Positions 5,507-32,911 of a stretch of DNA of 64,000 bases are shown here, piece by piece. Under the pieces are notes generated by a model, which saw only the letters and a list, made by a program, of their open reading frames with translations, was not told where the DNA came from and made no database searches. This DNA is from Cyanobium usitatum str. Tous (GTDB taxonomy: Bacteria; Cyanobacteriota; Cyanobacteriia; PCC-6307; Cyanobiaceae): NCBI RefSeq assembly GCF_963920485.1, contig NZ_OY986431.1, forward strand, positions 682,001 to 746,000, given 5' to 3'. Both the position numbers and the translations under genes were made by a program. The stretch's first letter is position 1. Every line of letters starts with the position of its first letter.

Positions 5507-6586
5507 TTAGCCGTGTAGGCGCCGCCCTTCACGCAACATCTCTGAGGGGCGAATGCCGTAGGTGTTGTGGAAGTCGCGGCTGAAGGAGGAGAGGTTGCTA
5601 AAGCCCAGTTTTGAGGAGATGCCGGCAACGCTGTCCCTTGGCGAGGGGTTGAGCAGGTGCTGCCGGGCCAGGCCAAGGCGCTGGCGGCGGATCCATTGGA
5701 TTGGTCCGCAACCGAAGCGCTTGCTGAAGGCGAGCTGCAGGTTGCGCCTCGAATAGCCGCTGCGCTGCTCCAGCTGGGTGAGATTGATTGGTGATTACAG
5801 ATTGGCCCCAATCCATTCCAGCAGTTCTTCGAAGATCAGCTCCCTGGAGAGCCCCTTTCCCTCACCGCCATCGAGTTGGGGGCAGAGGGCCAGGGCCAGG
5901 ATGCGATAGATGAGGTCGTCGATCTGCAGCGCCGCCAGATCGCCACGGGCTTGCAGTTCCGGCGCATCCAGCAGGGCAAAGGCCCGGCGCATGGTGATAA
6001 GCAGTGTGGCCTGCCGGTTCTCGGTCATTGAGAGCACCTGGGGACGCTGCAGATCGGGGACAAAGCGTCTACCGGAGAGCCCCATGCCGCCGATGGCAGC
6101 GGCCGTGTCCTGCAATCGCTGTAGGTCTACGTGCAGCACCAGCCCGTTGTAGTGCCCAGTGGTGTAGTTGTAAGAGAAGCCAGGGTTGAAGTAGAGGGGT
6201 GCTTCAGCGTGAATGTGGAAGGTGTTTCCATCAACTCCGTAGGAAGATTCCCCCTGGTAGCAGATGTTGATTGCGCCTACGCCGGGGTTATCACCGATGC
6301 GGCCATGGATAGGGCTTGTATATCCAGAGGTGAGGGTGAGGTCTCCAGCCAAGGCAGTGCTGGCCCGGTGCCGAAACGGATTGAGCAAGGGGTTGCGAGG
6401 GGCAAAATCCTCTACTGGAAAGTGCTGGGCCAGCTTGGTAGCTAGGGCCTGGGGATCCAAATCCACCACCGCTTGCTGGTCGTGGAACACCAGGGGGAAC
6501 TGGGAGACAGGATCCAAGCCACACCAAAATCGGTGGTCAGACCCTAATGAGAGCCTGCTGCGGCTCCAGCATCTGGGCAGCAGCAT
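5507..6586 (-). pseudogene. AraC-family regulator interrupted by an in-frame TAA
   Basis: The frame starting at 6586 encodes about 263 aa of an AraC-type N-terminal sensor domain and ends in TAA at 5795-5797. The same frame continues without another stop to 5507, giving SPINLTQLEQRSGYSRRNLQ, then LAFSKRFGCGPIQWIRRQRL, and then GISSKLGFSNLSSFSRDFHN with YGIRPSEMLRE. That is a complete double helix-turn-helix AraC DNA-binding domain. There is therefore one nonsense codon exactly between the sensor and DNA-binding domains and no frameshift. A single change in a sense codon such as CAA would explain it. It may be a recent pseudogene, a sequencing error or, less likely, a read-through site. The upstream start is uncertain. 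Confidence 0.8.
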
Positions 6587-6607
6587 TAATGCTTAGTGAT
6601 TTGGTGC

Positions 6608-6895
6608 TCAGCTCTGCTTCGGGAGCTTGAGCAGGGTGTCCTTGCTGTCCTTGAGATCCTTCCAGATGCGGCGGATTTCGGCGTAGGCCTGCTCCTGACT
6701 CACCTTGCCATTGCTTTGCAGGCCCACCACAAGCCCAACCCTCTCGGCAAATGATTCTAAGTTTTGGTGAAACATCAAACGCTGAGGAGTCCAATCGGAG
6801 CCCCGGTAGGCGGAATGGGGTTCCATGGGCGAGCTCAGGCCGTCGGCCATGGCTTCCGGATCGGATGGGGTGGGCCTGGGCCCCGCACTGGACAC
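6608..6895 (-). CDS. Conserved cyanobacterial small protein (possibly DUF7219-like)
   Basis: A 95-aa protein. Its N-terminal ~30 residues are Pro/Ser-rich and probably disordered. The core reads YRGSDWTPQRLMFHQNLESF, then AERVGLVVGLQSNGKVSQEQ, then AYAEIRRIWKDLKDSKDTLL. The 'Y-G-x-x-x-P-x-x-L-x-F-x-x-N-L-x-x-F' pattern followed by a helical 'EEAY-x-x-I-x-x-x-W-K-x-L' resembles a small cyanobacterial family of unknown function. An internal Met (MADGLSS or MEPHSAYRG) could be the true start. It lies just upstream of the broken AraC gene on the same strand. Confidence 0.6.
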   Translation of the reverse strand: MSSAGPRPTPSDPEAMADGLSSPMEPHSAYRGSDWTPQRLMFHQNLESFAERVGLVVGLQSNGKVSQEQAYAEIRRIWKDLKDSKDTLLKLPKQS

Positions 6896-7029
6896 TGGAA
6901 GCTCATGAACTTCCCTTAATTTAGAAGGATTGGATTAAGGAGTGTTGAAGGCTGCTTAGGTGTCGTCAGGAGCACCGGCGGCATCAGGTCGGCGGCCGCA
7001 ACATGCCAAACCCTCCGATCTGCGCTCTC

Positions 7030-7176
7030 ATGGATCAGTCCACGGGTGGTAGGTGGCTACAGGTGGTGATGTGTCTGCTGATCCAGGCCAGCATCGTTGC
7101 CGGTGGCCAACTCTTGATCCGCTGGCAGGCTCCTGATCTGACCCCAACGTGCTGCGCCCCACCCCTGGTGCTCTGA
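7030..7176 (+). CDS. Possible 48-aa single-TM protein overlapping corA
   Basis: An ATG at 7030 opens a 48-codon frame ending TGA at 7174-7176. It has a clear hydrophobic segment (WLQVVMCLLIQASIVAGGQLLIRW). It overlaps the assigned start of corA by 28 bp in another frame. It may be a small membrane protein translationally coupled to corA, or chance. There is no family recognition and the overlap counts against it. Confidence 0.3.
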   Translation: MDQSTGGRWLQVVMCLLIQASIVAGGQLLIRWQAPDLTPTCCAPPLVL

Positions 7177-8249
7177 ATTCCCACCTGCTGGAGGAGCGGC
7201 CTGCCAATTTGCCGGTCCACCTCTACGTCTCTGGCGGGCGGCACCAGAGTTGTTTCAGCGCCGTGTTGTTTGAGCCAGACGGCCCCCGGCTGATTTCCCT
7301 GCACAACCCTGCCGAACTTTTGCCTTTGCAGGAGCTCGGCTATCCAATCTGGCTGCGGGTGATGGGCCTGGGCGATCCAGGGGCAGTTGAGGCCATGCTC
7401 GACATCGTCCAAGTGCCTCGCATGTTGCTGCCTCCCCTGCTGGAGGTGCCCCAGCGCTCGCGGGTTGATGGGCTAGGGGAGGCCGTGATCGTGGTGCTGC
7501 ACCGGCTCAGCTTTGCGCGTGATCCCTTGCATCTGCTCAGCTCCCAGGTGGGTTTGCTGCTGCTGCCCAACCTGCTGGTCACCTTTGAGGAGGCGCCGGC
7601 GGGGGAGTCGTTTCCGGAGCTCACCGTCTGGCTGGAATCCAGGGTGGGTGCGGTGGAGCATCGCGACCTAGATGACATTCTCCACTTCCTGGTGGATGAG
7701 TTGCTCGATGCCCTTTTCCCCATGCTTGAGCAGATCGCCAATCGCCTCGACGACCTGGAAGAAGCGGCCCTGCGGGACCCCAAGCCGAAGTTATTGGCCC
7801 GGGCTTTTGTGCATCGCAGCAACCTGCGCACGATTCGCAACCAGGTGTGGCCCCTGCGCCACCAGATCCGGGTGCTGTTGCGCCAAAGGCAGCAGCTACT
7901 CGGCGCCGATGCTCTGGTTGGCTTCCAGGAGATGGCCGATCTGGTGGAGTTGCTGTTTGAAAACTGTGAGTTGTTGCGCCACCAATGTGATGCCATCACC
8001 CAGGCCTATGCGGCCAGTGTGGGCAACAGGATGAACCAGGTGATGAAAACCCTCACCATCCTCACCAGCATCTTCGCGCCGCTCACCTTCATCGCTGGGA
8101 TCTATGGCATGAACTTCGCCAACATGCCTGAGCTGCGTTGGCATCTGGGCTACTTCTACTGTCTGCTGTTGATGTCAATCGTGGCCGTAATTCAGACCTG
8201 CTGGCTGTGGCGCCGTGGTTGGTTTGCGGATTGGACGGCACCGCGCTGA
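7149..8249 (+). CDS. corA: CorA-type magnesium/divalent cation channel
   Basis: A 366-aa protein of the CorA family, an inner-membrane pentameric Mg2+ channel. The N-terminal ~290 residues are soluble, with a long helical stretch (LDDILHFLVDELLDALFPML onward). At the C-terminus are two membrane helices, the first ending in the selectivity motif YGMNFANMPEL, followed by 'YFYCLLLMSIVAVIQTCWLW' and a short basic tail. The start is a GTG at 7149 (LRPTPGALNSH). It could start later, because the first residues are not distinctive. Confidence 0.92.
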   Translation: MLRPTPGALNSHLLEERPANLPVHLYVSGGRHQSCFSAVLFEPDGPRLISLHNPAELLPLQELGYPIWLRVMGLGDPGAVEAMLDIVQVPRMLLPPLLEVPQRSRVDGLGEAVIVVLHRLSFARDPLHLLSSQVGLLLLPNLLVTFEEAPAGESFPELTVWLESRVGAVEHRDLDDILHFLVDELLDALFPMLEQIANRLDDLEEAALRDPKPKLLARAFVHRSNLRTIRNQVWPLRHQIRVLLRQRQQLLGADALVGFQEMADLVELLFENCELLRHQCDAITQAYAASVGNRMNQVMKTLTILTSIFAPLTFIAGIYGMNFANMPELRWHLGYFYCLLLMSIVAVIQTCWLWRRGWFADWTAPR

Positions 8250-8252
8250 AGC

Positions 8253-8271
8253 CACAACCTGGCCTTAACCC
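8253..8271 (+). promoter_or_regulatory. Putative Pho box upstream of sphX
   Basis: CACAACCT, a 3-base spacer (GGC) and CTTAACCC form two 8-base direct repeats close to the cyanobacterial PhoB/SphR consensus (CTTAACCT, 3 nt, CTTAACCT), about 50 bp ahead of the sphX start. The first repeat matches the consensus at 6 of 8 positions. A stronger version lies upstream of pstS in this window. Confidence 0.45.
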
Positions 8272-8318
8272 CTAAAAGCCCTCGGATCGCCCAGAGTTCT
8301 GTTGTGGTTGTGACCGTT

Positions 8319-9347
8319 ATGCGCCCTGTCTTGCGCTTTTCCTGGCTTCCCCTGGCTCTCCTGTCGCTGTTGCCCCTGGGAGTTGCCAAGGCGGCGACCC
8401 CGGCTCCGCTGCGCATCGGCGGCTCCAGCACAGTGTTTCCGGTGATGCAGGCAGCTGTTCAGGCTTATCAAAAAGCTGGTGCTAACCGCCAGGTGCGCTT
8501 TGAGCTCAAGGAAACGGGCACCTCTGCCGGCTTCCGCCAGTTCTGCAGCGGGCAGCTTTTCCTGGCTAACGCCTCCCGCCCCATCAGCGCCAAGGAGCTC
8601 AGGGCTTGTGCCGCCAAAGGGGTGAGCTTCCTTGAGCTGCCGATTGGTTTTGATGCGATCACGGTGGTGGTCAACCCTAAAAACACCTGGGCCAGCCGCA
8701 TCACCACCGGCGAGCTCTCCCGCCTCTGGAGCCAGGCGGCTGCTGGCAAGGTGACTCGCTGGAGCCAGGTGAACCTGGATTGGCCTGATCGCCCGATTCG
8801 CCTATGTGGCCCTGGCAAGGATTCTGGCACATTTGACTATTTCAATAAGGCTATAAATGGCAATGATAAAAATTCCCGTTCTGATGTATTTACTAGTGAA
8901 AATGACAACGATCTGGTTGCCTGCGTAGCTGGCAACCCTGATGCTCTTGGCTACTTTGGCTATGCCTACTTCCAAGCCAACAGCAAGCGACTAAAGGCCC
9001 TCAGCGTTGTAGGCAGTAAGGGTCCTGCCTATCCGTCACCACAGTCGGTTCAAAAGGAGAGCTATGTGCCCCTATCTAGGCCTCTCTTTATCTATGTGAA
9101 CGATCAGGCATTGCGCAGCCAGCCCGAACTGCGTAAATTTGTTACCTACACAATGCAAAATGGTTTGAAGCTGGTCAAGCAGGCGGGATATATCCCCATG
9201 CCTTCCAGTACCTACCGCCTGGTGGAAAGCAAGCTCTACCTCCAAGTGCTGGGCACGGCTTTTGGCGGCGATTTACCGGTGGGTCTTACCACCGGCCAAG
9301 CTTTGCAGCGCAGCCTAGATAGCATTAAGAAATCAGAATTCCGTTGA
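8319..9347 (+). CDS. sphX: Phosphate-binding protein, SphX type
   Basis: Periplasmic phosphate-binding protein for a Pst-type ABC importer, 342 aa from the ATG at 8319 (a GTG at 8304 is also in frame). A signal peptide is visible (MRPVLRFSWLPLALLSLLPLGVAKA). The mature part begins LRIGGSSTVFPVMQA, with the phosphate-binding GSSTV loop, then ELKETGTSAGFRQFCSG and a CGPGKDSGTFDYF loop. The long insert and the VSFLELPIGFDAITVVVNP segment match SphX rather than PstS. No pstCAB genes are visible. It is followed 7 bp later by the CHAD gene. A Pho-box-like site lies upstream. Confidence 0.85.
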   Translation: MRPVLRFSWLPLALLSLLPLGVAKAATPAPLRIGGSSTVFPVMQAAVQAYQKAGANRQVRFELKETGTSAGFRQFCSGQLFLANASRPISAKELRACAAKGVSFLELPIGFDAITVVVNPKNTWASRITTGELSRLWSQAAAGKVTRWSQVNLDWPDRPIRLCGPGKDSGTFDYFNKAINGNDKNSRSDVFTSENDNDLVACVAGNPDALGYFGYAYFQANSKRLKALSVVGSKGPAYPSPQSVQKESYVPLSRPLFIYVNDQALRSQPELRKFVTYTMQNGLKLVKQAGYIPMPSSTYRLVESKLYLQVLGTAFGGDLPVGLTTGQALQRSLDSIKKSEFR

Positions 9348-9354
9348 GTTCCGC

Positions 9355-10338
9355 ATGGTGTTGATGGATCGCTGCCGCGGTTTGGCCAGTGGTGCCTTTG
9401 CGCGGGAGCTGGTGCAGAAACAGGTCGCCAAGCTGGTGCAATTGCAGGCGCCGGTTGCGTCAGGAGAGGGCAGCGAGCCGCTGCATCAGATGCGGGTAGC
9501 AATGCGTCGGCTGCGCACCACCTTGATTCAGTTTGAGTCGGCCCTGCAGTTGCCAGCTGCTGTTAATGATCAGCGCCTGGCCAAATGGGTGCGCCGTTTG
9601 GGGCTGGCCCGGGATCTAGATGTTTTACGCGAACGCCTCGAAGATGGCTTCCTGCCCCAATTGCCGGCAGCGGAGCTGAAGGCCCTGCGCCCAGTTCTCA
9701 GGCAGTTGCGCCGCGAGCGTCAGCTAGCCCACGGCCATGTGGTGGAGGTGTTGCAAAGCCGCTCCTACCTAGAGGGGTTGGCTCAGCTTCAGCGCTGGCT
9801 GAAGGAGCCCGCCTTCACTTCGCTTGGTGAGCAACCGATTTCACAGTGGGTGCTGGAGTGGCAGGGGCCCGCAGTTTCGGGTCTTTTTCTGCATCCGGGT
9901 TGGCAGATCAGCAAGGATTCAGTTCAAAAGAATCCTGCTGAAACCGAGCAGTTGCATGAGCTGCGCCGCCAGCTCAAGCAGGTGCGTTATCTGCTGGAGA
10001 ATCTTGCTGCCTTGCAAGGTGCCGCTACGGAACCCTGGATTAGCCGCTTCAAGCAGGGCCAGGAGTTGCTGGGGGAGTGGAATGATCTGCAGGTGCTGCA
10101 AAGCGCCATCCACGACCAGGTGCCAGGACGGTTTGAAGACACCTTGCCCCAACTGGAGTGGCTGCTTGTGCAACACCAACGCCATTGCTGGCTGCAGTGG
10201 CGCGAGCTGGTGGATGAGTTGTTGCCTCAACGCCAGCGCCGCCGTCTGCGGCTTGCTTTGCTGGCGGAGCCGCTGCCTGCTGGGCCGCGATCTTGGCTTG
10301 GTGCTGGTTTAAGGCACGCCCTGGCCTGGCTTGGCTAG
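9355..10338 (+). CDS. CHAD domain protein (polyphosphate-associated)
   Basis: A 327-aa all-helical protein. The CHAD signature is at residues ~40-60: EPLHQMRVAMRRLRTTLIQF, with the conserved histidine and arginines, and a second half repeats the pattern (QLHELRRQLKQVRYLLENL). CHAD domains bind polyphosphate through conserved basic residues. The gene begins 7 bp after sphX and probably shares its transcript, so it may tie phosphate uptake to polyphosphate storage. That link is inference from context. No CYTH domain is present. Confidence 0.85.
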   Translation: MVLMDRCRGLASGAFARELVQKQVAKLVQLQAPVASGEGSEPLHQMRVAMRRLRTTLIQFESALQLPAAVNDQRLAKWVRRLGLARDLDVLRERLEDGFLPQLPAAELKALRPVLRQLRRERQLAHGHVVEVLQSRSYLEGLAQLQRWLKEPAFTSLGEQPISQWVLEWQGPAVSGLFLHPGWQISKDSVQKNPAETEQLHELRRQLKQVRYLLENLAALQGAATEPWISRFKQGQELLGEWNDLQVLQSAIHDQVPGRFEDTLPQLEWLLVQHQRHCWLQWRELVDELLPQRQRRRLRLALLAEPLPAGPRSWLGAGLRHALAWLG

Positions 10339-10341
10339 CAA

Positions 10342-10361
10342 AATGTGTCGCAGGACACATT
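10342..10361. other. Perfect 8-bp inverted repeat (hairpin or operator)
   Basis: AATGTGTC, loop GCAG, GACACATT lies just after the CHAD gene and about 95 bp before the porin start. No T-tract follows, so it is a weak terminator candidate. It could be an operator or mRNA-stability hairpin. Confidence 0.4.
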
Positions 10362-10456
10362 GTCTATGTCGCCCAGTTGCTCGTTTTGGCCTTGCTTTAT
10401 CGATAACTTGCCTTCGACTTCCTTTGTGAAGTCATCCCTATCGGTGTGAGGACCCG

Positions 10457-12037
10457 ATGAATCTTTCCAAAAAGCTGCTGCTAGCTCTAGCTGGCACCGG
10501 CATGATGGCTCCCATGGCCGCTTCGGCTCAAGAGCTGGCTTCGTTGAACGGCGCTGCCGCCATCAACGACTACATGCAACAGCAAGACGTTGACCGCTTC
10601 CGTGCTTGGGAATCCAAGAACCAAGTCACCAGCGTCACCCAGTTTTCCGACGTTCAGCCCACCGACTGGGCTTATCAAGCGCTGAGCAACCTGGTTGAGA
10701 AGTACGGCTGCGTGGCCGGCTACCCCAACGGCACCTACAAAGGCGGCCAGGCCATGACCCGCTATGAAGCGGCTGCCCTGCTCAACGCCTGTCTCGATCG
10801 CGTCACTGAAGTGACCGACGAACTGCAGCGCCTGATGGAAGAGTTCAAGGCTGAGCTGGCCACCCTGCGCGGCCGTGTCGATGGCTTGGAGAAGAAGGTG
10901 GGCAAGCTGGAGGCCCAGCAGTTCTCCACCACCACGAAGCTGCGTGGTGAAGTGAGCATGATTATCGGTGGATCTCCTGATTATGACGGTGATGGTTCAA
11001 CCAAAACCACCTTTAACTACGACGTCCGCTTGAGCTTTGACACCAGCTTCTCTGGTAAGGACTTGCTGCGGACCCGCCTGCGTAGTGGCAACTTTAACGA
11101 TGATCCTTTCGGCAGCAGCGGTAATGTATTCAAGCTAGATAAGGCTGAGGAAAATGCTGTTGATGGCGGCAACGCTGTTTCCATCGATCGTCTCTTCTAC
11201 ACTTTCCCTGTAGGCAATGAAGTGAAGCTTACGGTCGGCGCACTCGCCCGTAACACCGAGATGCTTTCCTTCATGCCAACGGCCTATAAATCTGGCATTC
11301 TCGACTTCTTCAACCTTGCCGGCGCGACGGGCACTTACAACAAAGCCACGGGTGCTGCTGCAGGCTTGTCTTGGAAGCAAAAAGTGAAGAAGGGCAATCC
11401 CTTCGCGACCTTCGACGTGAACTGGGTGTCGATGGCTGGAGGAGAGGGCGCTGGCTATGCAAACTCCGAAATTGGTGCCTTTAGCTCAGAAGGTGCCCAG
11501 AACATCCTGGCCCAGCTTGGTGTTAAAGGTCAGAACTGGGGTGCTGCAGTCGCCTACCGCTACGGCTCCGAAAATGCACGCCTGAGGGATCCCAACACCC
11601 CTTCCAGCGACTTTTTCCGTACTCTTGGCGAAGGTCAGGACAGCAACAGCGTCTCGCTTGCTGGCTTCTGGCAACCAATGGACGCTAAGTGGCTTCCCTC
11701 AATTTCTGGTGGCTTTAGCTACACCAACTACACCACCGGAGATGACCGGCCATCTGCAGACATCTGGTCGTGGATGGTTGGCCTTCAATGGAAGGATGTC
11801 TTCGTCAAGGGTAATAGCGCTGGCTTCGCAGTCGGCGCACCCCTTTACGTAACTAGCAGTTCTGACACCTCCGTCGAACAAGATGCTGGTTACATGTATG
11901 AACTGTTCTACAAATTTAGAGTATCCGACAACATTTCCGTTACTCCGGCCGTGTTCTGGATCACTAAGAACTATAATGACGGTAACGCTGGTCAAGGTAC
12001 TTATGGTGGCGTAATCCAAACCACCTTCAAGTTCTGA
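10457..12037 (+). CDS. Major outer-membrane porin with SLH domain (SomA/SomB, iron-uptake porin type)
   Basis: A 526-aa outer-membrane beta-barrel. The signal peptide is MNLSKKLLLALAGTGMMAPMAASAQ. An S-layer homology domain follows (residues ~65-120, DVQPTDWAYQALSNLVEKYG with the MTRYEAAALLNACLD end), which anchors to peptidoglycan-linked polymer. Next is a coiled coil (VTDELQRLMEEFKAELATLR) and then an OprB-like barrel of alternating beta strands ending in a terminal Phe (QTTFKF). This is the standard architecture of cyanobacterial porins. An AGGA-like ribosome site (GTGAGGACCCG) precedes the ATG. A clear terminator follows. Its place between sphX/CHAD and pstS suggests a phosphate-linked role, which is inference. 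Confidence 0.9.
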   Translation: MNLSKKLLLALAGTGMMAPMAASAQELASLNGAAAINDYMQQQDVDRFRAWESKNQVTSVTQFSDVQPTDWAYQALSNLVEKYGCVAGYPNGTYKGGQAMTRYEAAALLNACLDRVTEVTDELQRLMEEFKAELATLRGRVDGLEKKVGKLEAQQFSTTTKLRGEVSMIIGGSPDYDGDGSTKTTFNYDVRLSFDTSFSGKDLLRTRLRSGNFNDDPFGSSGNVFKLDKAEENAVDGGNAVSIDRLFYTFPVGNEVKLTVGALARNTEMLSFMPTAYKSGILDFFNLAGATGTYNKATGAAAGLSWKQKVKKGNPFATFDVNWVSMAGGEGAGYANSEIGAFSSEGAQNILAQLGVKGQNWGAAVAYRYGSENARLRDPNTPSSDFFRTLGEGQDSNSVSLAGFWQPMDAKWLPSISGGFSYTNYTTGDDRPSADIWSWMVGLQWKDVFVKGNSAGFAVGAPLYVTSSSDTSVEQDAGYMYELFYKFRVSDNISVTPAVFWITKNYNDGNAGQGTYGGVIQTTFKF

Positions 12038-12101
12038 TCTCCAAAACAGCCCAGACACTCCTCACCGCTTTCTCGTAGCTACAACTCACACACAACTTCG
12101 G

Positions 12102-12125
12102 CCCTCCAGCAATGGGGGGTTTTTT
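12102..12125 (+). terminator. Rho-independent terminator after the porin gene
   Basis: CCCTCC, loop AGCAAT, GGGGGG (one G-U pair), followed by a run of six T. It lies 65 bp after the porin stop codon. Confidence 0.85.
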
Positions 12126-12153
12126 ATTGCTTGCGTGGCGACTTTTCGCCAGT

Positions 12154-12172
12154 CTTGAACGCCCCTTAACCG
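12154..12172 (+). promoter_or_regulatory. Putative Pho box upstream of pstS
   Basis: CTTGAACG, spacer CCC, CTTAACCG form two 8-base direct repeats with 3-base spacing, the arrangement described for cyanobacterial Pho boxes. They lie 64 bp ahead of the pstS start. The second copy matches CTTAACC exactly. This predicts induction of pstS under phosphate limitation. Confidence 0.6.
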
Positions 12173-12235
12173 GGTGATAACGACTGGCGGGAGGCGATCT
12201 TGCTATTAATGAGGAGACCCCAAAAGTCTATTTCC

Positions 12236-13228
12236 ATGACCTTCGCCAAGAAGGCCTTGATTGCCGGCACTGTTGCAGCTATCGGTGCTGGCGCAGCTTC
12301 TGCCGTCCTTCCTGCGCTTGCTCAGGCCACTATCAGTGGTGCTGGTGCAACCTTTCCTGCCGCCTTCTACCAGCGCGCTTTCGCTGGTGTGGCCAACAAG
12401 GTGCGCGTCAACTACCAGTCGGTTGGTTCCGGCTCGGGAGTGCGTCAGTACGTAGCCGGCACCGTTGAATTCGGCGCCACCGACGAACCGATCAAGGCCA
12501 AGGAGGCTGCCAAGGTAAAGCGTGGGGTGATCCAGTTCCCCGCCGTGGGCGGCACCATCGCCATCGCCTACAACAAGGCCGACTGCAAGAACCTTAAGCT
12601 CACTCAACAGCAAGCTGTCGATATCTTCCTCGGCAAGATCAACACCTGGGATCAGCTCAAGTGTGGCAAGGGCAAGATCACCGTTGCCCACCGCTCCGAC
12701 GGCTCCGGTACCACCTTCGCCTTCACCAACAGCCTCTCTGCCTTCTCCTCTGAGTGGAAGAGCAAGGTGGGCGAAGGCAAGAGCGTTAAGTGGCCAGTTG
12801 GCGTGGGTGGTAAGGGCAACGAAGGCGTTTCGGGTGTGATTCAGAACACCCCTGGTGCCATCGGCTATCTCAACCAGAGCTACGTCAAAGGCGCGATCAA
12901 AGCCGCTGCTCTGCAAAACAAGGCCGGCAAATTCGTGCTGCCCACCGAGGAAAGCGGCGCTGCTGCCCTCAACAACATCAAGCTCGATTCGATGCTGGCC
13001 GGCGAAGAGCCCAATCCCTCAGGTGCCAACAGCTACCCGATCTCGACTCTGACTTGGATTCTGGCCTACAAGACCGGCAACGGCGACAAGGCTCCAGCTA
13101 TCCGTCAGGCTTTGATGTTCCTGCTAAGCCCTAAAGCCCAAGGTCAGGCTTCCAGCCTCGACTTCGTGCCACTTAAAGGCAGCATTCTCTCCGCGTCTAA
13201 GAAGGCCGTTGGCCAGATTGGCCGCTGA
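12236..13228 (+). CDS. pstS: Phosphate ABC transporter substrate-binding protein PstS
   Basis: A 330-aa periplasmic phosphate-binding protein from the ATG at 12236 (MTFAKKALIAGTVAAIGAG). An in-frame upstream ATG at 12209 gives an unlikely extension. A signal peptide runs to about residue 30 (VLPALAQA). Mature motifs are ISGAGATFPAAFYQRAF, VNYQSVGSGSGVRQY, FGATDEPIKAKEA and HRSDGSGTTFAFTNSLS, the last three lining the phosphate site. GAIGYLNQSYV follows. This is the classical PstS family. It is distinct from the SphX-type protein 4 kb upstream, so two phosphate-binding proteins flank the porin. A strong terminator follows. Confidence 0.95.
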   Translation: MTFAKKALIAGTVAAIGAGAASAVLPALAQATISGAGATFPAAFYQRAFAGVANKVRVNYQSVGSGSGVRQYVAGTVEFGATDEPIKAKEAAKVKRGVIQFPAVGGTIAIAYNKADCKNLKLTQQQAVDIFLGKINTWDQLKCGKGKITVAHRSDGSGTTFAFTNSLSAFSSEWKSKVGEGKSVKWPVGVGGKGNEGVSGVIQNTPGAIGYLNQSYVKGAIKAAALQNKAGKFVLPTEESGAAALNNIKLDSMLAGEEPNPSGANSYPISTLTWILAYKTGNGDKAPAIRQALMFLLSPKAQGQASSLDFVPLKGSILSASKKAVGQIGR

Positions 13229-13261
13229 GCATAGACTTCGTGCTTCATGCATACGAATGCC

Positions 13262-13284
13262 AAGGCCCCGCAAGGGGCCTTTTT
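13262..13284 (+). terminator. Rho-independent terminator after pstS
   Basis: AAGGCCCC, tetraloop GCAA, GGGGCCTT (perfect 8-bp stem), then a T-run. It lies 33 bp beyond the pstS stop. Confidence 0.92.
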
Positions 13285-13548
13285 ATTGGCTTGTTTTTTG
13301 GAGAGTTCCTGCTTTGGGCCCTCTTACCAAAGGCTTAGGAGCTAGTTGCTTGTTGGTGCTGTTTCACTGCTGAATCCCTTGCTGGCTGAGGTGTTTGAAT
13401 AGAAAATTGTATGTCGCAGCATCCATGGGCTCTGTATCAGCAGTGACATGGTCATTTCTATACCTGGCTATTCGGTAATCTCACCGTTATGTCGTTTATC
13501 GTGCCAAGTTTGTGAAATTTCCTCGGAAAACCTTGACAGGCTGAAGCT
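13285..13548. other. Intergenic spacer, no feature seen
   Basis: About 260 bp between the pstS terminator and the arsJ stop codon. I find no ORF above about 12 codons, no RNA gene and no strong hairpin. Confidence 0.6.
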
Positions 13549-14817
13549 CTAGCTCTCTAGATCAAATTTTGGATGTAGCTGCCGTGGCGGTGTTGGCAAG
13601 CGAGTGCTCACCATGGCAGCCAACGCAACCAACACTGCCGAGCTCCACAGGCAGGCTTGCAGGCCGCCCACCAGAAACAGGGCTCCCGATAGCACGGTGC
13701 CCAGCAGTCGGCCGGCGGCGTTGGCCATGTAATAGAAGCCCACGTTGAGGCTCACATCCTCCGCTTCCGTGTAGGCGAGGATCATGTAGCTGTGAATTGA
13801 TGAATTCATCGCAAACACCACGCCAAACACAGCAAGTCCCACCACTACTGCCACCCCAGGCTGGCCAACCTCACGCCACAGGGCAACCGCAATCAGGGCT
13901 GGAATAGCTGTGAGAACCGAACTCCAGAACTGCACTGCTGCTATCCCTGGAGGGGCGCTTTGGCCCCAAGCCCGTCGCAGAGCCGGTGCCGATCCCTGCA
14001 CGATTCCGTAGCCGATAACCCACAGGCCCATGAAGCCGCCCACCTCCCAGAAGCGCCAGCCGAGGGCGCTCTGCAGAAATACGGGTAGGGCCACCACAAA
14101 CCAAACGTCGCGAGCACCGAAAAGAAAGAAGCGCGCCAGCGAGAGCACGTTGATGCCGCTGCTCTTGGAAAATAGCGCCGTGAAGCTGGGCTTCTGTTTC
14201 ATCCTGCCGATATCCGCCGGCAGCACCAGTGTCATCAAGAAAGCCAAAAACAAGCCGGCGGCCATTGCTGCTACTGCGGCGTTGAAGCCAATGGTGGTGA
14301 GCAACACCCCGCCAAGAAAAAAGCCCACTCCCTTGAGTGCGTTTTTGGAACCGGTGAGAATCGCCACCCACTTGAATAGTTGACCCTCTCCCTTGCTGTG
14401 GTCTTCCGGCGTTTCGGCCACTACGGTTTTGATGGCGCTTTTGGCACTCATTTTGTTGAGATCCTTGGCTATGCCGCTGATCGCCTGGGCCACCATCACG
14501 TAGGCCACACTCCACCATTTGGGCCAGTCGTCGGCCACTGGGATCAGCATCAGCAGCGCCGCTACCTGCATTAAGGTGCCGCTCCAGAGAGTCAGCCGCA
14601 GCCCAAAGCGCGCGCCCAGCCAGCCGCCATAGAGGTTGGTGATGATGCCAAAAAACTCATAAAACAGAAATAGAAAAGCGATCTCAAGGGTGCTGTAGCC
14701 AAGCTCGTGGAAGTGGAACACCACGAGCATGCGCAGGGCACCATCGGTGAGGGTGAAGGCCCAGTAATTGGCCGTCACGATCGTGTATTGCTGCAGGGCT
14801 GAAAGGGCGCGGCTCAT
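13549..14817 (-). CDS. arsJ: Organoarsenical efflux MFS transporter ArsJ
   Basis: A 422-aa major-facilitator transporter with about 12 membrane segments. The N-terminus (TANYWAFTLTDGALRMLVVF, then HELGYSTLEIAFLFLFYEFF) and the loop AGIAKDLNKMSAKSAIKT (here SGIAKDLNKMSAKSAIKTVV) are typical of ArsJ. In characterised systems ArsJ exports 1-arseno-3-phosphoglycerate, an unstable product made from arsenate by a dedicated GAPDH. That GAPDH gene lies immediately upstream on the same strand (9-bp gap), so the pair should form one transcript controlled by the ArsR-type operator at 15.9 kb. Confidence 0.93.
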   Translation of the reverse strand: MSRALSALQQYTIVTANYWAFTLTDGALRMLVVFHFHELGYSTLEIAFLFLFYEFFGIITNLYGGWLGARFGLRLTLWSGTLMQVAALLMLIPVADDWPKWWSVAYVMVAQAISGIAKDLNKMSAKSAIKTVVAETPEDHSKGEGQLFKWVAILTGSKNALKGVGFFLGGVLLTTIGFNAAVAAMAAGLFLAFLMTLVLPADIGRMKQKPSFTALFSKSSGINVLSLARFFLFGARDVWFVVALPVFLQSALGWRFWEVGGFMGLWVIGYGIVQGSAPALRRAWGQSAPPGIAAVQFWSSVLTAIPALIAVALWREVGQPGVAVVVGLAVFGVVFAMNSSIHSYMILAYTEAEDVSLNVGFYYMANAAGRLLGTVLSGALFLVGGLQACLWSSAVLVALAAMVSTRLPTPPRQLHPKFDLES

Positions 14818-14826
14818 GGTTCTGGT

Positions 14827-15852
14827 TCAGCGCTCGTCTATCAGGGCCACATGGCTCACCAGATCGGCCATGCGAGAGCTGTAGCCCCACTCGTTGTCAT
14901 ACCAGGCGTACACCTTTAGCTGGGTGCCATTCACCACCATGGTCGAGGCGGCATCGATGATGGCGCTGCGATCATCATTTACATAATCAACTGACACCAG
15001 TGGCCTGGTTTCGTAGCCAAGAATGCCACGCAGTGCCCCGTTGGCTGCGACTTCAAAGGCACTATTTACCTCCTCCACTGTCACCTCGCGCATCAGTTCA
15101 AATACCGCATCCGTTAGGGAGGCATTCAGCAGCGGTACCCGCACGGCATGGCCGTTTAGTTTTCCTTGCAGCTCTGGAAAGATCATTCCAATTGCCTTTG
15201 CTGACCCCGTGGTGGTGGGGATCAGGCTTTGCATGCAGGAGCGGGCCCGGCGTAGGTCGCTTTTGAAACCATCCACCACTACCTGGGTGTTGGTGACGTC
15301 GTGCAAGGTGGTGATCGAGCCGTGCTTGATGCCAAAGCTCTCGTGAATCACCTTCACCACCGGCGCCAGGCAGTTGGTTGTGCAGGAGGCGGCGGTCAGC
15401 AGGCGGTGCTGGCGTGGGTCGTAGAGCTGGTGGTTGATACCGAAGACAACGTTGAGAGCCTCGGCCCCGGCGATCTCACCCTTCACTGGGCAGGCAACTA
15501 CCACCCGTTTGAGGCCCACCTGGTCGAAGTAGGGCTGGAGCGTTTCCGGTGTTTTGAACTTGCCGCTGCACTCCAGCACCATCTCCACGCCGGCTTCCCT
15601 CCAGGGCACGGCGGTTGGCTTGCTCTCTCTCGTGTAGCTCACCGCCTGGCTACCCACGAAGAAGCCCCGCGTATTTCCTTGCACCGCCTGTTGCCAGCGA
15701 CCATGCACGGAGTCGAAGGCGAGTAGGTGGGCTGCGGTTTGAGCATCACCGCCGCAGTCGTTGACGTGAACAAGCTCAATGCCGGGACGGCCCCACAAGG
15801 CCCTAAACACCAGGCGGCCGATGCGGCCAAAGCCGTTGATGCCGATTTTCAT
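14827..15852 (-). CDS. ArsJ-associated glyceraldehyde-3-phosphate dehydrogenase
   Basis: A 341-aa GAPDH family enzyme. The Rossmann start is [19 protein letters not shown]. The catalytic cysteine lies in [19 protein letters not shown], with the partner His in the later core and the C-terminal [12 protein letters not shown] segment. With arsenate in place of phosphate it would make 1-arseno-3-phosphoglycerate for ArsJ to export. Assignment to the arsenate branch rather than central metabolism rests on the adjacent arsJ and arsR. The ATG lies 51 bp from the palindromic operator shared with arsR. Confidence 0.92.
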
Positions 15853-15903
15853 TGATCAGAGCCGACAATGGCGGCATGAGTCGTGAGACCCTAAATCAAT
15901 ATG

Positions 15904-15919
15904 AGTTGATTCATCAACT
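15904..15919. promoter_or_regulatory. Palindromic ArsR-type operator between divergent ars genes
   Basis: AGTTGAT, TC, ATCAACT is a perfect inverted repeat of 7-bp arms with a 2-bp centre, set between the start codons of gapdh (15852) and arsR (15931). A related half (AATCAAT) lies just upstream. ArsR/SmtB repressors bind such short dyads, and one site here could control both directions. Confidence 0.7.
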
Positions 15920-15930
15920 AAAATTGGTGC

Positions 15931-16257
15931 ATGAGTGTTCTAGATCACCCTGTGGCGCTTGAGCCTGCCAAGGCTCGGGCCCTGCTGAAGGCCATGGCCG
16001 ATCCCCTCAGGCTTCAGGTGCTTGAAGCCTTGGGGAGCGGTGAGCGCTGCGTTTGTGAACTCACCAGTGAGCTGGGCTTGGCCCAATCGAAGCTCTCTTT
16101 CCATCTCAAGGTGTTGCGGGAGGCTGGTTTGATTGAGGCACGAGATGAGGGCCGCTGGGTTTACTACAGCCTGCGCATCGATGCGATTGAGCAGTTGCGC
16201 GGCTGGCTAGGGGAGTTGGCCAGTCGCTGCGCCCAGCCTGCTACGCCCTGTTGTTGA
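15931..16257 (+). CDS. arsR: ArsR/SmtB-family arsenite-responsive repressor
   Basis: A 108-aa winged-helix regulator. The core is [20 protein letters not shown], then [20 protein letters not shown] with [20 protein letters not shown] and VYYSLR. The CVCEL segment in helix alpha-3 is the ELCVCDL-type As(III)-binding site of ArsR, and extra C-terminal cysteines (CAQPATPCC) may also bind As(III). It would repress both arms of the cassette and release on arsenite. The acr3 gene starts one base after its stop codon, so the two are translationally coupled. Confidence 0.93.
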
Positions 16258-16258
16258 A

Positions 16259-17278
16259 ATGGGATTTTTTGAGCGCTTCTTGAGTCTTTGGGTGGCACTG
16301 GCCATCATGGCTGGGGTCACCTTTGGAGCCCTTTTCCCTTCGTTTGCCGAGGCCGTTGCCGCCTTGGAATTTGCTCGGATCAACCTGCCGATTGGCCTGC
16401 TGATCTGGGGGATGATCTATCCAATGATGTTGGCAGTTGATTTCAATTCCCTTGGTGGACTCCGTCGTCAGCCGAAGGGATTGATCGTCACTGTGGTGGT
16501 GAATTGGCTTATCAAACCGCTCACGATGACGGCCCTTGCCTGGCTGTTCATTCGTGGTCTATTCAGTTCCTGGATTTCAGCTGAGATCGGTGATCAATAC
16601 GTCGCCGGCATGATTTTGCTTGGGGTGGCCCCCTGCACAGCCATGGTATTTGTGTGGAGCCGGCTATGTGATGGAGATGCTAATTATACCTTGGCGCAAG
16701 TGGCTATAAATGACCTGATCATGGTGTTTGCCTTTGCACCGATTGCAGCCCTTCTGCTGGGAGTGAGCAAGGTGATCGTGCCCTGGGACACTTTGGTTGC
16801 CGCAGTTGGTTTGTTTGTGGTGGTTCCCCTTGCGGCGGGCTGGCTTACCCGATTGATTTTGCGCTCCCCTGGGCGCATTGGGCGCCTAGAGCAGAGTCTC
16901 AAGCCCGTGGCAATTGGCAGTTTAATTGCCACTGTATTGGTGCTATTTATGGTGCAGGCTAGAGCGATCCTGGCCAACCCGCTGGCGCTTATTCTAATCG
17001 CTATTCCGCTAATTTTGCAAACTTATCTTGTCTTCTGGATTGGTGCCCAGTGGATGCGTTTTTGGCGCCAACCGCAAAAAGTTGCCGCGCCTGGCGCGAT
17101 AATAGGTGCTTCCAACTTCTTTGAACTGGCAGTGGCCGTGGCCATCAGCTTATTTGGACTTAACTCTGGTGCCGCTCTGGCCACTGTGGTGGGGGTGCTG
17201 GTGGAAGTTCCCGTGATGCTATCGCTAGTGGCGATTGCTAATCGCAACCGGACGCTATTTCCCTATCGTCCTAGCTAG
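16259..17278 (+). CDS. acr3: Arsenite efflux permease, ACR3 family
   Basis: A 339-aa inner-membrane protein with about ten TM helices. Diagnostic segments are [40 protein letters not shown] (with the essential cysteine in the APC motif) and [18 protein letters not shown]3 extrudes arsenite using the proton gradient. It follows arsR without a gap. Together with arsJ/gapdh the cell handles both As(III) and As(V). No arsenate reductase (arsC) is visible in this cassette. Confidence 0.95.
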
Positions 17279-17417
17279 GGAATCGAAATCGAAGTGCAGC
17301 AGCAGTTCTTTGAGGTCGAAACTCAATGAGTTATGAAGGTGGTGCGGGTTGGAGAGTCTGTGGCTCTTATGTCTCAATTTAAATAGATGGCCTAGGCAGA
17401 CTGGGCTTGTCAGTTAG

Positions 17418-20093
<2,676 letters not shown>

Positions 20094-20216: not shown

Positions 20217-21599
20217 TCAGCTCAAGAGCAGCTCCAGCCCAGCCAGGCCAGCTCCGGTGGCAGCCGCTGCACCAATCACTTGCAAAACGCTCCAGCGCCC
20301 CTTGAGTTGGGCCAGTAGCCCCAGTGCCACCACTAGTGCCGCTGTGGGACTGAATGCTCCCAGTGGCCAGAGAACTGGAGCCGAGAAGAACGCCGCCAAA
20401 CTGGCTATCACCCCGACAACGGCTGCGGTGATCGTCGTGAGTGGCGCGCTGAAACGCAGGTCACCGCGGCTGGTCTCCACTAGAGGTGCCCCAGCGAGAA
20501 TCAACCCAAAGGACGGCAGAAACGTGAACCACACGGTAATCAGGGTGGTAGCTACGGCCAGCGCCAAGCTGCCCCCCGCATCAGCGAGGCCAGCTCCGAG
20601 GCCCCGGTTCCAGCCGCCCATGAAGCCCACGAAGGCCACCACCATGATCAAGGGCCCTGGCGTGGTTTCCCCTAGGGCCAGGCCATCAAGCATCTGGCTG
20701 GCTGTAAGCCAGCCGAACTGCTCCACGGCACCTTGGGCCACGTAGGGGAGCACGGCGTAGGCCCCCCCAAAGCTGAGCAGGGCCACGCGCGTGAAAAAGC
20801 GAGCCATCACGGCCAGGGTGCCGTTCCAGCCGCCAATGGCACTAAGCAAGGCCAAGGGGATCAGTAGGGCTAGCCCCCAGGCCAGCAAAATGCGCGCCAA
20901 CTGGCGACGCGAGAAGCGGCAATGCTCGGGTGTGGGCGTGTGGTCGCCATGAATGGGCTCTTGCTGCTGCAGGGCAGTGGTTTCGCTTGTCGATGCGCTC
21001 AGCTGGGTGTCTGGGCTGGGGTGTGTGGGGGCAAATAGCAGTCCAGGTCGCCAGCGGCCTGCCACCAAGCCGCTGAGAGCTGCCCCAAGCACCACCAGTG
21101 GATAGGGCAGGCGCAGCATCGCCAGGCTCACAAACGCCGCTGCGGCAATGCCGATCAGCAGGGGTGTGCGTAGGGCCCGCTGGCCGAGCCGCCAGGCCGC
21201 CACAATCACAATTGCCAGCACGGCTGGCTTGAGCACGACGAACACACCCATCAGCAGCGGCAGCTGGCCCCAGAGCCCATAGGCAGTGGCCAAGGTGGTG
21301 AGCACCAGCACTGATGGGGCGAGGAACAGTCCGCCGGCGATCAAGCCGCCTGGCACTCCATGCATCAGCCAGCCCAGGTAGGTGGCCAGCTGGGTGGCCT
21401 CCGGACCCGGCAGGAGCATGCAGTAGTTGAGAGCGTGCAGGAAGCGCCGCTCTGACAGCCAGCGTCGGCGATCGACTAGCTCCCGGTGCAGCAGGGCAAT
21501 TTGACCCGCCGGCCCCCCAAAACTCACCAGGCCCAGCTGCAGCCAGAAGCGAGATGCTTCTTTAAGGCTTACGGCTTGCCTCGGGGTGAGGAGATTCAT
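20217..21599 (-). CDS. chrA: Chromate transporter (ChrA, two-domain)
   Basis: A 460-aa CHR family protein from the ATG at 21599. The open frame runs 122 codons further upstream, but that part has no membrane or family character. Two homologous halves are visible, each with the signature: FWLQLGLVSFGGPAGQIALLH near residue 20 and FFTRVALLSFGGAYAVLPYV near residue 265, plus LPGPEATQLATYLGW and LGETTPGPLIMVVAFVGF. CHR proteins export chromate, often by mistaking it for sulfate. The central linker (residues ~205-250) is polar. It adds to the metal/metalloid-resistance flavour of 13.5-21.6 kb. Confidence 0.9.
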   Translation of the reverse strand: MNLLTPRQAVSLKEASRFWLQLGLVSFGGPAGQIALLHRELVDRRRWLSERRFLHALNYCMLLPGPEATQLATYLGWLMHGVPGGLIAGGLFLAPSVLVLTTLATAYGLWGQLPLLMGVFVVLKPAVLAIVIVAAWRLGQRALRTPLLIGIAAAAFVSLAMLRLPYPLVVLGAALSGLVAGRWRPGLLFAPTHPSPDTQLSASTSETTALQQQEPIHGDHTPTPEHCRFSRRQLARILLAWGLALLIPLALLSAIGGWNGTLAVMARFFTRVALLSFGGAYAVLPYVAQGAVEQFGWLTASQMLDGLALGETTPGPLIMVVAFVGFMGGWNRGLGAGLADAGGSLALAVATTLITVWFTFLPSFGLILAGAPLVETSRGDLRFSAPLTTITAAVVGVIASLAAFFSAPVLWPLGAFSPTAALVVALGLLAQLKGRWSVLQVIGAAAATGAGLAGLELLLS

Positions 21600-21761
21600 C
21601 CTGATAAGTGGACCAACCCAATCACCAACATGCTGCTCCCCAGCCTGTTGCTTTAGCCCGTGGCGCCGCTGGTGAGTGGAGTTGAGCATCGCGCTCCAGG
21701 GCCAGGCAACCCCACGGCAGGGGAGCGGCCGCGCCAGACTCTTAGGTAACGAACCATCACA

Positions 21762-22004
21762 GTGATGCCCAAGCCTCTTTGGCTGGTGCGTCCCCGCCCA
21801 GACGGGGGCTGCGATTACGTGAGTTTCCTGCCCGCCCAGGGACCTATTGGTGTGACCACAGTTGAGATGCGGGAAGGTAGCCACTTGCCACCCCAGCTTC
21901 CCCTGCTCAAACACCGCAAGCGTTTGGGGGCCGAAGAGGCTGAGAGCTGCAGCCGCCGTCTGCAACTCGAGGCTGGATTTCTCTCCTGTGAGCCCCTGTT
22001 TTAG
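21762..22004 (+). CDS. DUF1651-like small protein
   Basis: An 80-aa protein of the picocyanobacterial DUF1651 type: a beta-rich start (WLVRPRPDGGCDYVSFLPAQ) and the family ending PLLKHRKRLGAEEA, then a CEP-F terminus. A second, divergent member lies in the island at 49245-49484, sharing the PLLKSRR core. No function is known. It sits divergently from chrA. Confidence 0.65.
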   Translation: MMPKPLWLVRPRPDGGCDYVSFLPAQGPIGVTTVEMREGSHLPPQLPLLKHRKRLGAEEAESCSRRLQLEAGFLSCEPLF

Positions 22005-31020: not shown

Positions 31021-31251
31021 TTAGCCTTGCCCGCTCAGTATTTCTTGCAATTTTGCCTGCAGGCTGTCGCGAACCTCCGGATCTCCCACCAATCGCAGGA
31101 TTCCTTCCCGGGGCCACCAGTTGAGCTTGAGATTGCTGACGCCATCGTTAAAGACGGCCAGCTCAAAAGCCCCCTTGTGTTGCCATTCACACGGCACCCC
31201 AAGTTGGGCAACCAGCTGCTTGAGCTCGTCCAGGGATCCCTTGAACTCCAC
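31021..31251 (-). CDS. Small conserved hypothetical protein
   Basis: A 76-aa soluble protein (EFKGSLDELKQLVAQLGVPC, then NLKLNWWPREGILRLVGDPE) with an alpha-beta pattern and a C-terminal helix. I do not recognise a named family. It ends 32 bp before the PhnC-type gene on the same strand and may be the first gene of that operon, or the remains of the junction where the operon was split. Confidence 0.55.
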   Translation of the reverse strand: MEFKGSLDELKQLVAQLGVPCEWQHKGAFELAVFNDGVSNLKLNWWPREGILRLVGDPEVRDSLQAKLQEILSGQG

Positions 31252-32907: not shown

Positions 32908-32911
32908 GTCG

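Follow-up and report, generated by a model that had tools for sequence, protein, structure and literature searches.

Does a CHAD domain protein, a potential polyphosphate (polyP)-binding protein, belong to the phosphate (Pho) regulon of cyanobacteria? This question is raised by a locus of the picocyanobacterium Cyanobium usitatum str. Tous (family Cyanobiaceae), in which the CHAD gene is placed immediately behind sphX, the gene for a periplasmic phosphate-binding protein, and is followed by genes for an outer-membrane porin and a further phosphate-binding protein, PstS. The locus lies in a 64-kb stretch of DNA (positions 682001 to 746000 of the single 2.66-Mb contig), referred to below as the window, whose coordinates are used unless genomic or locus positions are indicated. 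A preliminary description of this DNA had named these four genes in this order, which is borne out by hidden Markov model matches, and had joined them into a local regulon. We assign a probability of about 0.7 to the following reading of the locus: it represents a phosphate-starvation block in which a polyP-binding CHAD protein would be co-expressed with a periplasmic phosphate-binding protein.

Pho Boxes Upstream of sphX, pstS, and CHAD Genes

Both pairs of Pho boxes that had been claimed for this locus, one upstream of sphX and the other upstream of pstS, were found (Table 1). They were scored on both strands of the window with a weight matrix derived from the cyanobacterial Pho boxes that Su et al. 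published in 2007 (PMC1906773). The two sites have near-equal two-box scores, 12.67 for pstS and 12.66 for sphX, which rank 6th and 7th in the 64 kb, respectively; the sphX score is expected 0.013 times per kb per strand in simulated sequence. In a three-box scoring, the pstS site ranks first in the window and the sphX site 123rd, and because of the latter rank we consider sphX to have two boxes here, not three.

The pattern for a genome-wide scan took the pstS site as its model, which makes the exact match at that site a product of construction. With up to 2 mismatches allowed, this pattern has 42 matches in the genome versus 86 for the reversed pattern. The 42 matches include the sites at pstS, sphX, a gene for a DUF7219 protein, a second pstS (genomic position 2346090), and the ptrA operon (1427658); none of them is located at pstC near 869 kb. 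Given the result of the reversed control, motif counting was dropped as evidence in its own right. The Pho motif is not diagnostic by itself, and its significance therefore rests on position and on conservation in relatives. As a separate observation, locus L090 (positions 6813 to 7250) has an exact match to the pattern inside the 3'-terminal part of what, judging by eye, we take to be a transaldolase-like gene; the match lies approximately 42 nt before the gene for a 125-aa cyclic-nucleotide-binding protein.

Conservation was evaluated in picocyanobacterial CHAD loci, the window included, by scoring the 220 bp that precede the genes. The 19-bp matrix used for this footprinting comes from 13 sphX and pstS sites in loci without CHAD, several of which belong to genomes with CHAD elsewhere. 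These were the better-scoring sites; weaker ones, at sphX in L050, L051, L055, and L059 and at pstS in L051 and L055, did not enter the matrix. The threshold of 8.9 is the level reached by 5% of 696 control open reading frames (ORFs), and 50 of the 68 CHAD loci could be scored, the rest having a short flank or no matching ORF. At this level, Pho boxes are detected upstream of sphX in 20 of 21 cases, upstream of pstS in 18 of 23, and upstream of ptrA in all 16. The prediction that sphX and pstS are members of the Pho regulon is thus supported by tandem 8-bp boxes with 3-bp spacing that are kept in relatives.

For the CHAD genes, the outcome depends on their position. Of 26 stand-alone CHAD genes, 13 are preceded by a Pho box; the respective numbers are 0 of 18 for those behind sphX and 1 of 6 for those behind corA. 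Across 200 column-permuted matrices, the number of boxed stand-alone genes averages 3.1 and peaks at 8, never reaching 13. The 13 boxed genes span six clusters at 60% protein identity. The count is 10 of 20 when only intergenic controls (292 ORFs) are used and 11 of 26 when the control set still holds ptrA, phoB, and phoR; once these three genes are removed from the controls, the threshold drops from 10.2 to 8.9, and 13 rather than 11 genes pass it. The matrix of published boxes, applied to the loci drawn from the family, finds sites upstream of CHAD (5/18), sphX (16/20), pstS (8/12), and gapA (3/5). Footprinting counts for the other genes are 0/9 for the porin, 1/27 for corA, 1/4 for arsJ, 2/3 for arsR, 0/2 for gapA, and 6/11 for phoB. 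We predict that the CHAD gene of the window belongs to the Pho regulon because it lies 7 nt behind the boxed sphX, which suggests co-transcription, and because half of the 26 stand-alone relatives have boxes of their own.

The CHAD Protein and Its Gene Neighborhoods

The CHAD protein is the sole match to this domain in the genome, and no further Pfam domain is reported in its 327 residues. It is probably cytoplasmic, as no signal peptide is seen by eye. Its best-matching named relative, with 94% amino acid identity over the CHAD protein, comes from Synechococcus sp. CS-1330, followed by those from Synechococcus sp. 8F6, Cyanobium sp. FACHB-13342, and Synechococcus sp. CS-1331. In the experimentally studied CtCHAD, polyP binding is weakened by mutation of His253, Arg256, Arg260, Arg296, or Arg418/Tyr419 (PMC6537752). 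An alignment, combined with the text of that work, identifies H44, R47, R51, R86, R211, and Y212 as their counterparts in the window protein. The comparison covers these six positions, with the likewise mutated Arg385, Lys386, Lys389, Lys390, Arg438, and Lys441 of CtCHAD lying outside it. Because the six polyP-binding residues are kept, the CHAD protein may bind polyP; taken together with the upstream sites, this makes it probably a polyP-binding protein of the Pho regulon, which may in turn affect polyP.

Gene neighborhoods were compared in 68 nonduplicate picocyanobacterial CHAD loci, the window among them, that were mostly picked by similarity to the window CHAD protein. Six duplicates (L112, L132, L134, L136, L139, and L145) were dropped, as were L046 and L047, where tblastn missed CHAD and no query gene was detected. 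The genes found within 5 kb of CHAD are corA in 41 loci, sphX in 28, ptrA in 22, pstS in 21, phoB in 18, phoR in 17, and the porin gene in 11. At least one of sphX, pstS, and ptrA is that close in 49 of the 68 loci, and any of the seven genes in 56; in the family draw alone, sphX, pstS, or ptrA is this close in 14 of 22 loci, and the denominator becomes 24 if L046 and L047 are counted. Eight loci (L036, L102 to L104, L106 to L108, and L110) have a contiguous corA-sphX-CHAD-ptrA-phoB-phoR arrangement. Elsewhere the order varies (corA-sphX-CHAD, sphX-corA-CHAD, corA-CHAD-pstS, CHAD-pstS-ptrA, or CHAD with a divergent corA and with ptrA behind it), and the partners stay the same.

CHAD and SphX also tend to be present in the same genomes. 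Among 81 genomes of the family, CHAD is found in 23 and SphX, scored over the cut-off, in 24; both are encoded in 22 genomes, CHAD only in 1, SphX only in 2, and neither in 56 (Fisher P = 1.7e-16, uncorrected for ancestry). The respective numbers for the 28 genomes of at least 2.4 Mb are 19, 1, 1, and 7 (P = 5e-5, again uncorrected for ancestry). In the wider phylum, coordinates compared by eye reveal at least two loose CHAD-SphX pairs outside the family (G104 and G232) among the SphX matches listed.

The Porin Gene and Its Leader

The porin belongs to the SomB family, whose NCBI name, "iron uptake porin," is no proof of its substrate. The preliminary description had placed it in the local regulon, and this part of the proposal is not supported. 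Pho boxes are absent from all 9 scored porin genes, that of the window included, as well as from the 3 genes of an earlier set, two of which are shared with the 9. These counts give no support to a direct action of the Pho regulator on the porin gene, and the porin genes share a conserved upstream region of another kind.

This region was compared in 11 leaders, namely, those with a match starting near the porin start; the contig-end porins of L048 and L049, the distant one of L065, and the second one of L099 were left out. The aligned leaders share a GT-N10-AC core about 113 nt ahead of the ATG, a hairpin, and GTGTGAGGA at the ribosome-binding region. In its 20-bp form, the palindrome around the core occurs a single time in the genome within 2 mismatches. 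The looser TGTG-N8-CACA form is matched once more in the window, at 31176, and is not matched in eight loci of the same genome that were examined, two of them overlapping. A conserved GATAAC at 10402, if used as the -10 element, would center the palindrome near -62, as in class I activation by CRP, and NtcA may be an alternative regulator acting at this site. The palindrome was also considered as a terminator; this is not favored, as there is no T-tract and the relatives keep only the GT-N10-AC core. The leader contains two hairpins (10416 to 10459), and in the first of them the stem letters vary among the 11 leaders while the pairing is kept; taken in its entirety, the stretch from 10330 to 10456 shows no excess stability over its shuffles (z = -1.4).

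GTGTGAGGA is the complement of the 11-nt motif that we take to be that of the small RNA (sRNA) Yfr1. This motif occurs twice in the genome. One copy lies downstream of a presumably guaB-like gene, recognized by eye, and is flanked by two stem-loops, as we would expect for yfr1. The porin is thus a predicted Yfr1 target, on the strength of a 9-nt complement over the ribosome-binding region and of a Yfr1-like locus in the same genome. The second copy of the motif lies in L179 around position 1500, between what we take by eye to be ribosomal L7/L12- and RNase H-like genes, and possibly represents Yfr10.

The porin might still be drawn into the regulon indirectly, the whole block being a single SphR/PhoB regulon in which the porin gene is reached by read-through from sphX-CHAD. 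Such read-through would meet no terminator-like site (no T-tailed terminator) listed between 10338 and 10457, the porin gene is found within 5 kb behind CHAD in the 11 loci mentioned above, and in Crocosphaera, som is reported to go up together with sphX and pstS under phosphate limitation. We nevertheless regard this possibility as unlikely: besides the missing Pho boxes, the conserved upstream region, the leader hairpins, and the putative -10 element all point to a promoter of the porin's own. Transcription of the entire block as one operon was rejected in view of this upstream region and of the terminator-like sites after the porin and after pstS, the terminator scan itself being weak evidence (18 sites found versus 11 expected in the scanned stretch). 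The local regulon of the preliminary description is therefore retained for sphX, pstS, and CHAD, which have conserved boxes or, in the case of CHAD, follow sphX or are boxed on their own, and not for the porin.

Regulators and a Possible Mechanism

The presumed regulators are encoded elsewhere in the same genome, where genes for PtrA, a second response regulator, a PhoB-like protein, and a PhoR-like protein lie together at approximately 1.425 Mb. PtrA scores 358 bits (cut-off, 300); the PhoB-like (228 bits) and PhoR-like (182 bits) proteins encoded behind it are both below their cut-offs. A Pho-like site, at genomic position 1427658, precedes ptrA. In L085, a divergent second OmpR-type response regulator is encoded between ptrA and the PhoB-like gene (positions 14246 to 14938 of that locus), its receiver domain scoring only 36 bits.

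A mechanism consistent with these data could be as follows. At low phosphate, SphR/PhoB would bind the boxes at 8253 and 12154, as suggested by their conservation and spacing, and would activate two transcripts, one of sphX-CHAD and one of pstS. SphX and PstS would load the PstCAB importer, which is encoded outside the window, as the preliminary description had said: pstC-pstA-pstB is found at 866 to 869 kb of the genome. The CHAD protein would remain in the cytoplasm and, to judge from its residues, bind polyP. It would most likely be an accessory of polyP turnover, involved in phosphate release in starvation and in the uptake of surplus phosphate on its return, with the direction being a guess. 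For the porin, control by the sRNA Yfr1 and by a member of the CRP family is more likely than direct Pho control; PtrA, itself encoded by a Pho-boxed gene, is a candidate for the latter regulator. Finally, the products of arsJ with its GAPDH gene and of arsR-acr3 would remove the arsenate that enters via the same importer.

Alternative Explanations

Several observations weigh against the proposed co-expression of CHAD with phosphate capture. The sphX site, with its two boxes and a rank of 123rd as a three-box site, falls short of the SphR sites described for Synechocystis, which carry at least three boxes (PMC1906773). SphR is assigned by context and its identity is unsettled, because a regulator encoded at genomic position 1796709 scores as high on the PhoB model TIGR02154 (229 bits) as the one behind ptrA, the cut-off being 296. 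A ppk gene is not linked to CHAD: the sole PP_kinase match in the genome is at 2362457, some 1.67 Mb away by coordinate, and ppx was not searched for. Neither sphX, pstS, nor ptrA is found within 5 kb in 19 of the 68 loci, some of which are short contigs, and 13 of the 26 stand-alone CHAD genes lack a Pho box at the 95% level. The loci, mostly picked by similarity to the window CHAD protein, are related, so that the counts are not independent. Furthermore, a study of Nodularia, which also cites Synechocystis, found most polyP genes unresponsive to phosphate limitation, with ppk alone increasing, after 14 days (PMC9846622).

The unboxed half of the stand-alone genes would be expected if CHAD were a passenger, i.e., a gene that came to lie behind sphX by history and is co-transcribed with it while having no role in the phosphate response, as might be the case for a constitutive polyP granule protein. 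The same holds for the 28 Nostocales and Planktothrix loci, which lack a Pho box at CHAD in every case. Only one of them has sphX, pstS, or ptrA nearby; any of the seven genes is found in 11, mostly through matches to phoB and phoR (8 each); as both belong to large families, such matches may lack specificity. We consider a passenger role rather improbable. Against it stand the boxes carried by CHAD genes located behind neither sphX nor corA, in six clusters and well beyond the permuted matrices, the partner genes that remain constant when their order changes, and the co-occurrence of CHAD with SphX.

An extension of the proposed phosphate-starvation role would place CHAD in phosphate signaling, not in storage alone, with the polyP-bound or the free form of the protein reporting the polyP stock to the PhoR/PhoB/PtrA cascade. 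The idea comes from several Cyanobium-type loci that encode CHAD between sphX and ptrA-phoB-phoR, all predicted to be co-regulated. It is very doubtful, and the open-licence literature searched yielded no cyanobacterial report of a link from internal phosphate stores to starvation sensing via CHAD. Lastly, binding of some other polyanion or a metal, so that CHAD would tie arsenate or metal detoxification to the phosphate block, is highly improbable: arsJ-GAPDH, arsR-acr3, and chrA do lie beside the block, and CHAD has been discussed in copper resistance, but arsJ is matched in just 5 of the 68 loci, compared to 49 with sphX, pstS, or ptrA, and the examined polyP-binding residues are all kept.

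Other Features of the Locus

The coordinates of the block and its surroundings are listed in Table 1. No Rfam matches were obtained for positions 6000 to 17500 at E values up to 1.

Table 1. Predicted genes and regulatory sites of the phosphate-related block and its flanks
Feature	Position	Strand	Evidence or comment
DUF7219 small protein gene (95 aa)	6608..6895	-	PF23856, 73 bits
Pho-box pair CTTCAACA-CTC-CTTAATCC, for the DUF7219 gene	6932..6950	-	Ranks 3rd among two-box sites of the window; genome pattern matched with 1 mismatch
corA-type Mg/Co transporter gene	7149..8249	+	PF01544, 173 bits; TIGR00383, 196 bits, slightly below the cut-off of 201
Pho-box pair CACAACCT-GGC-CTTAACCC, for the sphX-CHAD unit	8253..8271	+	48 to 66 nt upstream of the sphX ATG
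sphX, periplasmic phosphate-binding protein	8319..9347	+	TIGR02136, 246 bits; cut-off, 207
CHAD protein gene (327 aa)	9355..10338	+	PF05235, 147 bits; cut-off, 25.6; starts 7 nt past the sphX stop
CRP-family-type palindrome TGTGTCGCAGGACACA ahead of the porin gene	10344..10359	.	GT-N10-AC core invariant in 11 aligned leaders
Porin-leader hairpin GACTTC-CTTTGT-GAAGTC	10416..10433	+	Stem in all 11 folded leaders
GTGTGAGGA, complementary to the Yfr1 sRNA motif and lying over the ribosome-binding region	10444..10452	+	Invariant in 11 aligned leaders
SomB-type outer-membrane porin gene, without a Pho box	10457..12037	+	NF033921, 321 bits
Terminator-like hairpin 3' of the porin gene	12100..12121	+	Terminator scan
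Three Pho boxes for pstS: CTTGAACG, CTTAACCG, GATAACGA (pair CTTGAACG-CCC-CTTAACCG at 12154..12172)	12154..12183	+	Top three-box score in the window
pstS, phosphate-binding protein	12236..13228	+	TIGR00975, 254 bits, over the cut-off
Terminator-like hairpin 3' of pstS	13262..13281	+	Terminator scan
arsJ, organoarsenical efflux	13549..14817	-	NF033734, 593 bits
ArsJ-associated GAPDH gene	14827..15852	-	NF033735, 557 bits
arsR (15931..16257) and acr3, arsenite efflux (16259..17278)	15931..17278	+	NF033788 and TIGR00832
P-type Ca-ATPase-like gene	17418..20093		
chrA-type chromate transporter gene	20217..21965	-	PF02417, 223 bits

The four genes named previously were identified correctly, and the list was incomplete, lacking the Pho-boxed DUF7219 gene, corA, arsJ-GAPDH, arsR-acr3, and chrA. 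The gene for the DUF7219 protein is a probable additional member of the Pho regulon, as a pair of Pho boxes is found upstream of 20 of 31 such genes, the window included, against a matched control (21 of 31 in a first tally with a borrowed threshold). Both L116 copies are counted in this set, the duplicates L112, L134, L136, and L014 are left out, and L003 and L007 were too short. Its neighbor corA was tried as a Pho gene and rejected, with a box at 1 of 27 corA genes (in L113). Because of this difference in the counts, the box-like sites at 6904 to 6950 are assigned to the divergent DUF7219 gene.

On the other side of the block, the genes for ArsJ and its dedicated GAPDH are adjacent, and both products score over the cut-off. 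Arsenic genes are also found beside sphX in the relatives L049, L053, L056, L057, L061, and L065, and for Nodularia, ArsR, SphX, and the ArsJ-associated GAPDH appear in one block of a table (PMC9846622). With the Ca-ATPase-like gene and chrA past the ars genes, the phosphate/oxyanion neighborhood may reach to about 22 kb. Farther away, an arginase-family protein with EF-hand repeats is encoded directly before a urea transporter that also has EF-hand repeats (31423 to 34549); two adjacent fusions of this calcium motif to nitrogen-metabolism proteins are an unusual combination. A phage-type integrase with a DUF6538 domain, encoded at 47874 to 49142, could mark the border of an island.

Comparison with Known Systems

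The prediction that comparative genomics provides is that of a polyP-binding protein in the picocyanobacterial Pho regulon, encoded with uptake proteins and, in several genomes, beside the regulators. It contrasts with the description of cyanobacterial polyP accumulation genes as mostly outside the transcriptional phosphate response (PMC9846622). Many of the named CHAD loci come from freshwater or brackish Cyanobium and Synechococcus. If the prediction is true, there would be a common switch for phosphate capture and storage, bearing on how such cells gain and hold phosphorus.

CHAD is absent from the available text of PMC1906773, PMC9846622, PMC10119275, PMC11358556, PMC12260270, and PMC11098088, and no report of CHAD under Pho control in cyanobacteria was found in the open-licence literature searched. 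The cyanobacterial case thus appears unreported in the literature searched, and there is a precedent in Streptomyces. Streptomyces lividans has a ppk-pptA-nudix operon under PhoR/PhoP control, with the CHAD protein PptA expressed mainly at low phosphate (PMC8003754). The two systems have in common that the Pho regulon includes a gene for a stand-alone CHAD protein (phosin). They differ in that the Streptomyces gene lies behind ppk and its control has been shown, whereas here CHAD lies behind sphX, ppk is unlinked, and control is predicted; the relatives of the window also differ in having CHAD beside ptrA-phoB-phoR.

The 8-3-8 direct repeats at sphX and pstS resemble the tandem CTTAACCT boxes of the cyanobacterial Pho regulon as described by Su et al. 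2007 (PMC1906773). That description differs in giving at least three boxes per site, compared to the two at sphX here, and in reporting no Pho box for pstS and pstCAB of strain WH8102, whereas here pstS is boxed and the pattern is unmatched at pstC. The porin has its counterpart in the Yfr1-controlled porins of Prochlorococcus MED4 (PMC6778093): porin genes are the Yfr1 targets in both cases, although here this is only predicted. The block is also similar to the phosphorus islands of marine picocyanobacteria, where SphX, arsenate efflux, and ChrA are among the phosphorus-related genes (PMC10119275). Likewise, the Pho-like site upstream of ptrA is in line with the PhoBR-PtrA cascade, in which PtrA is under the control of PhoBR (PMC11098088).

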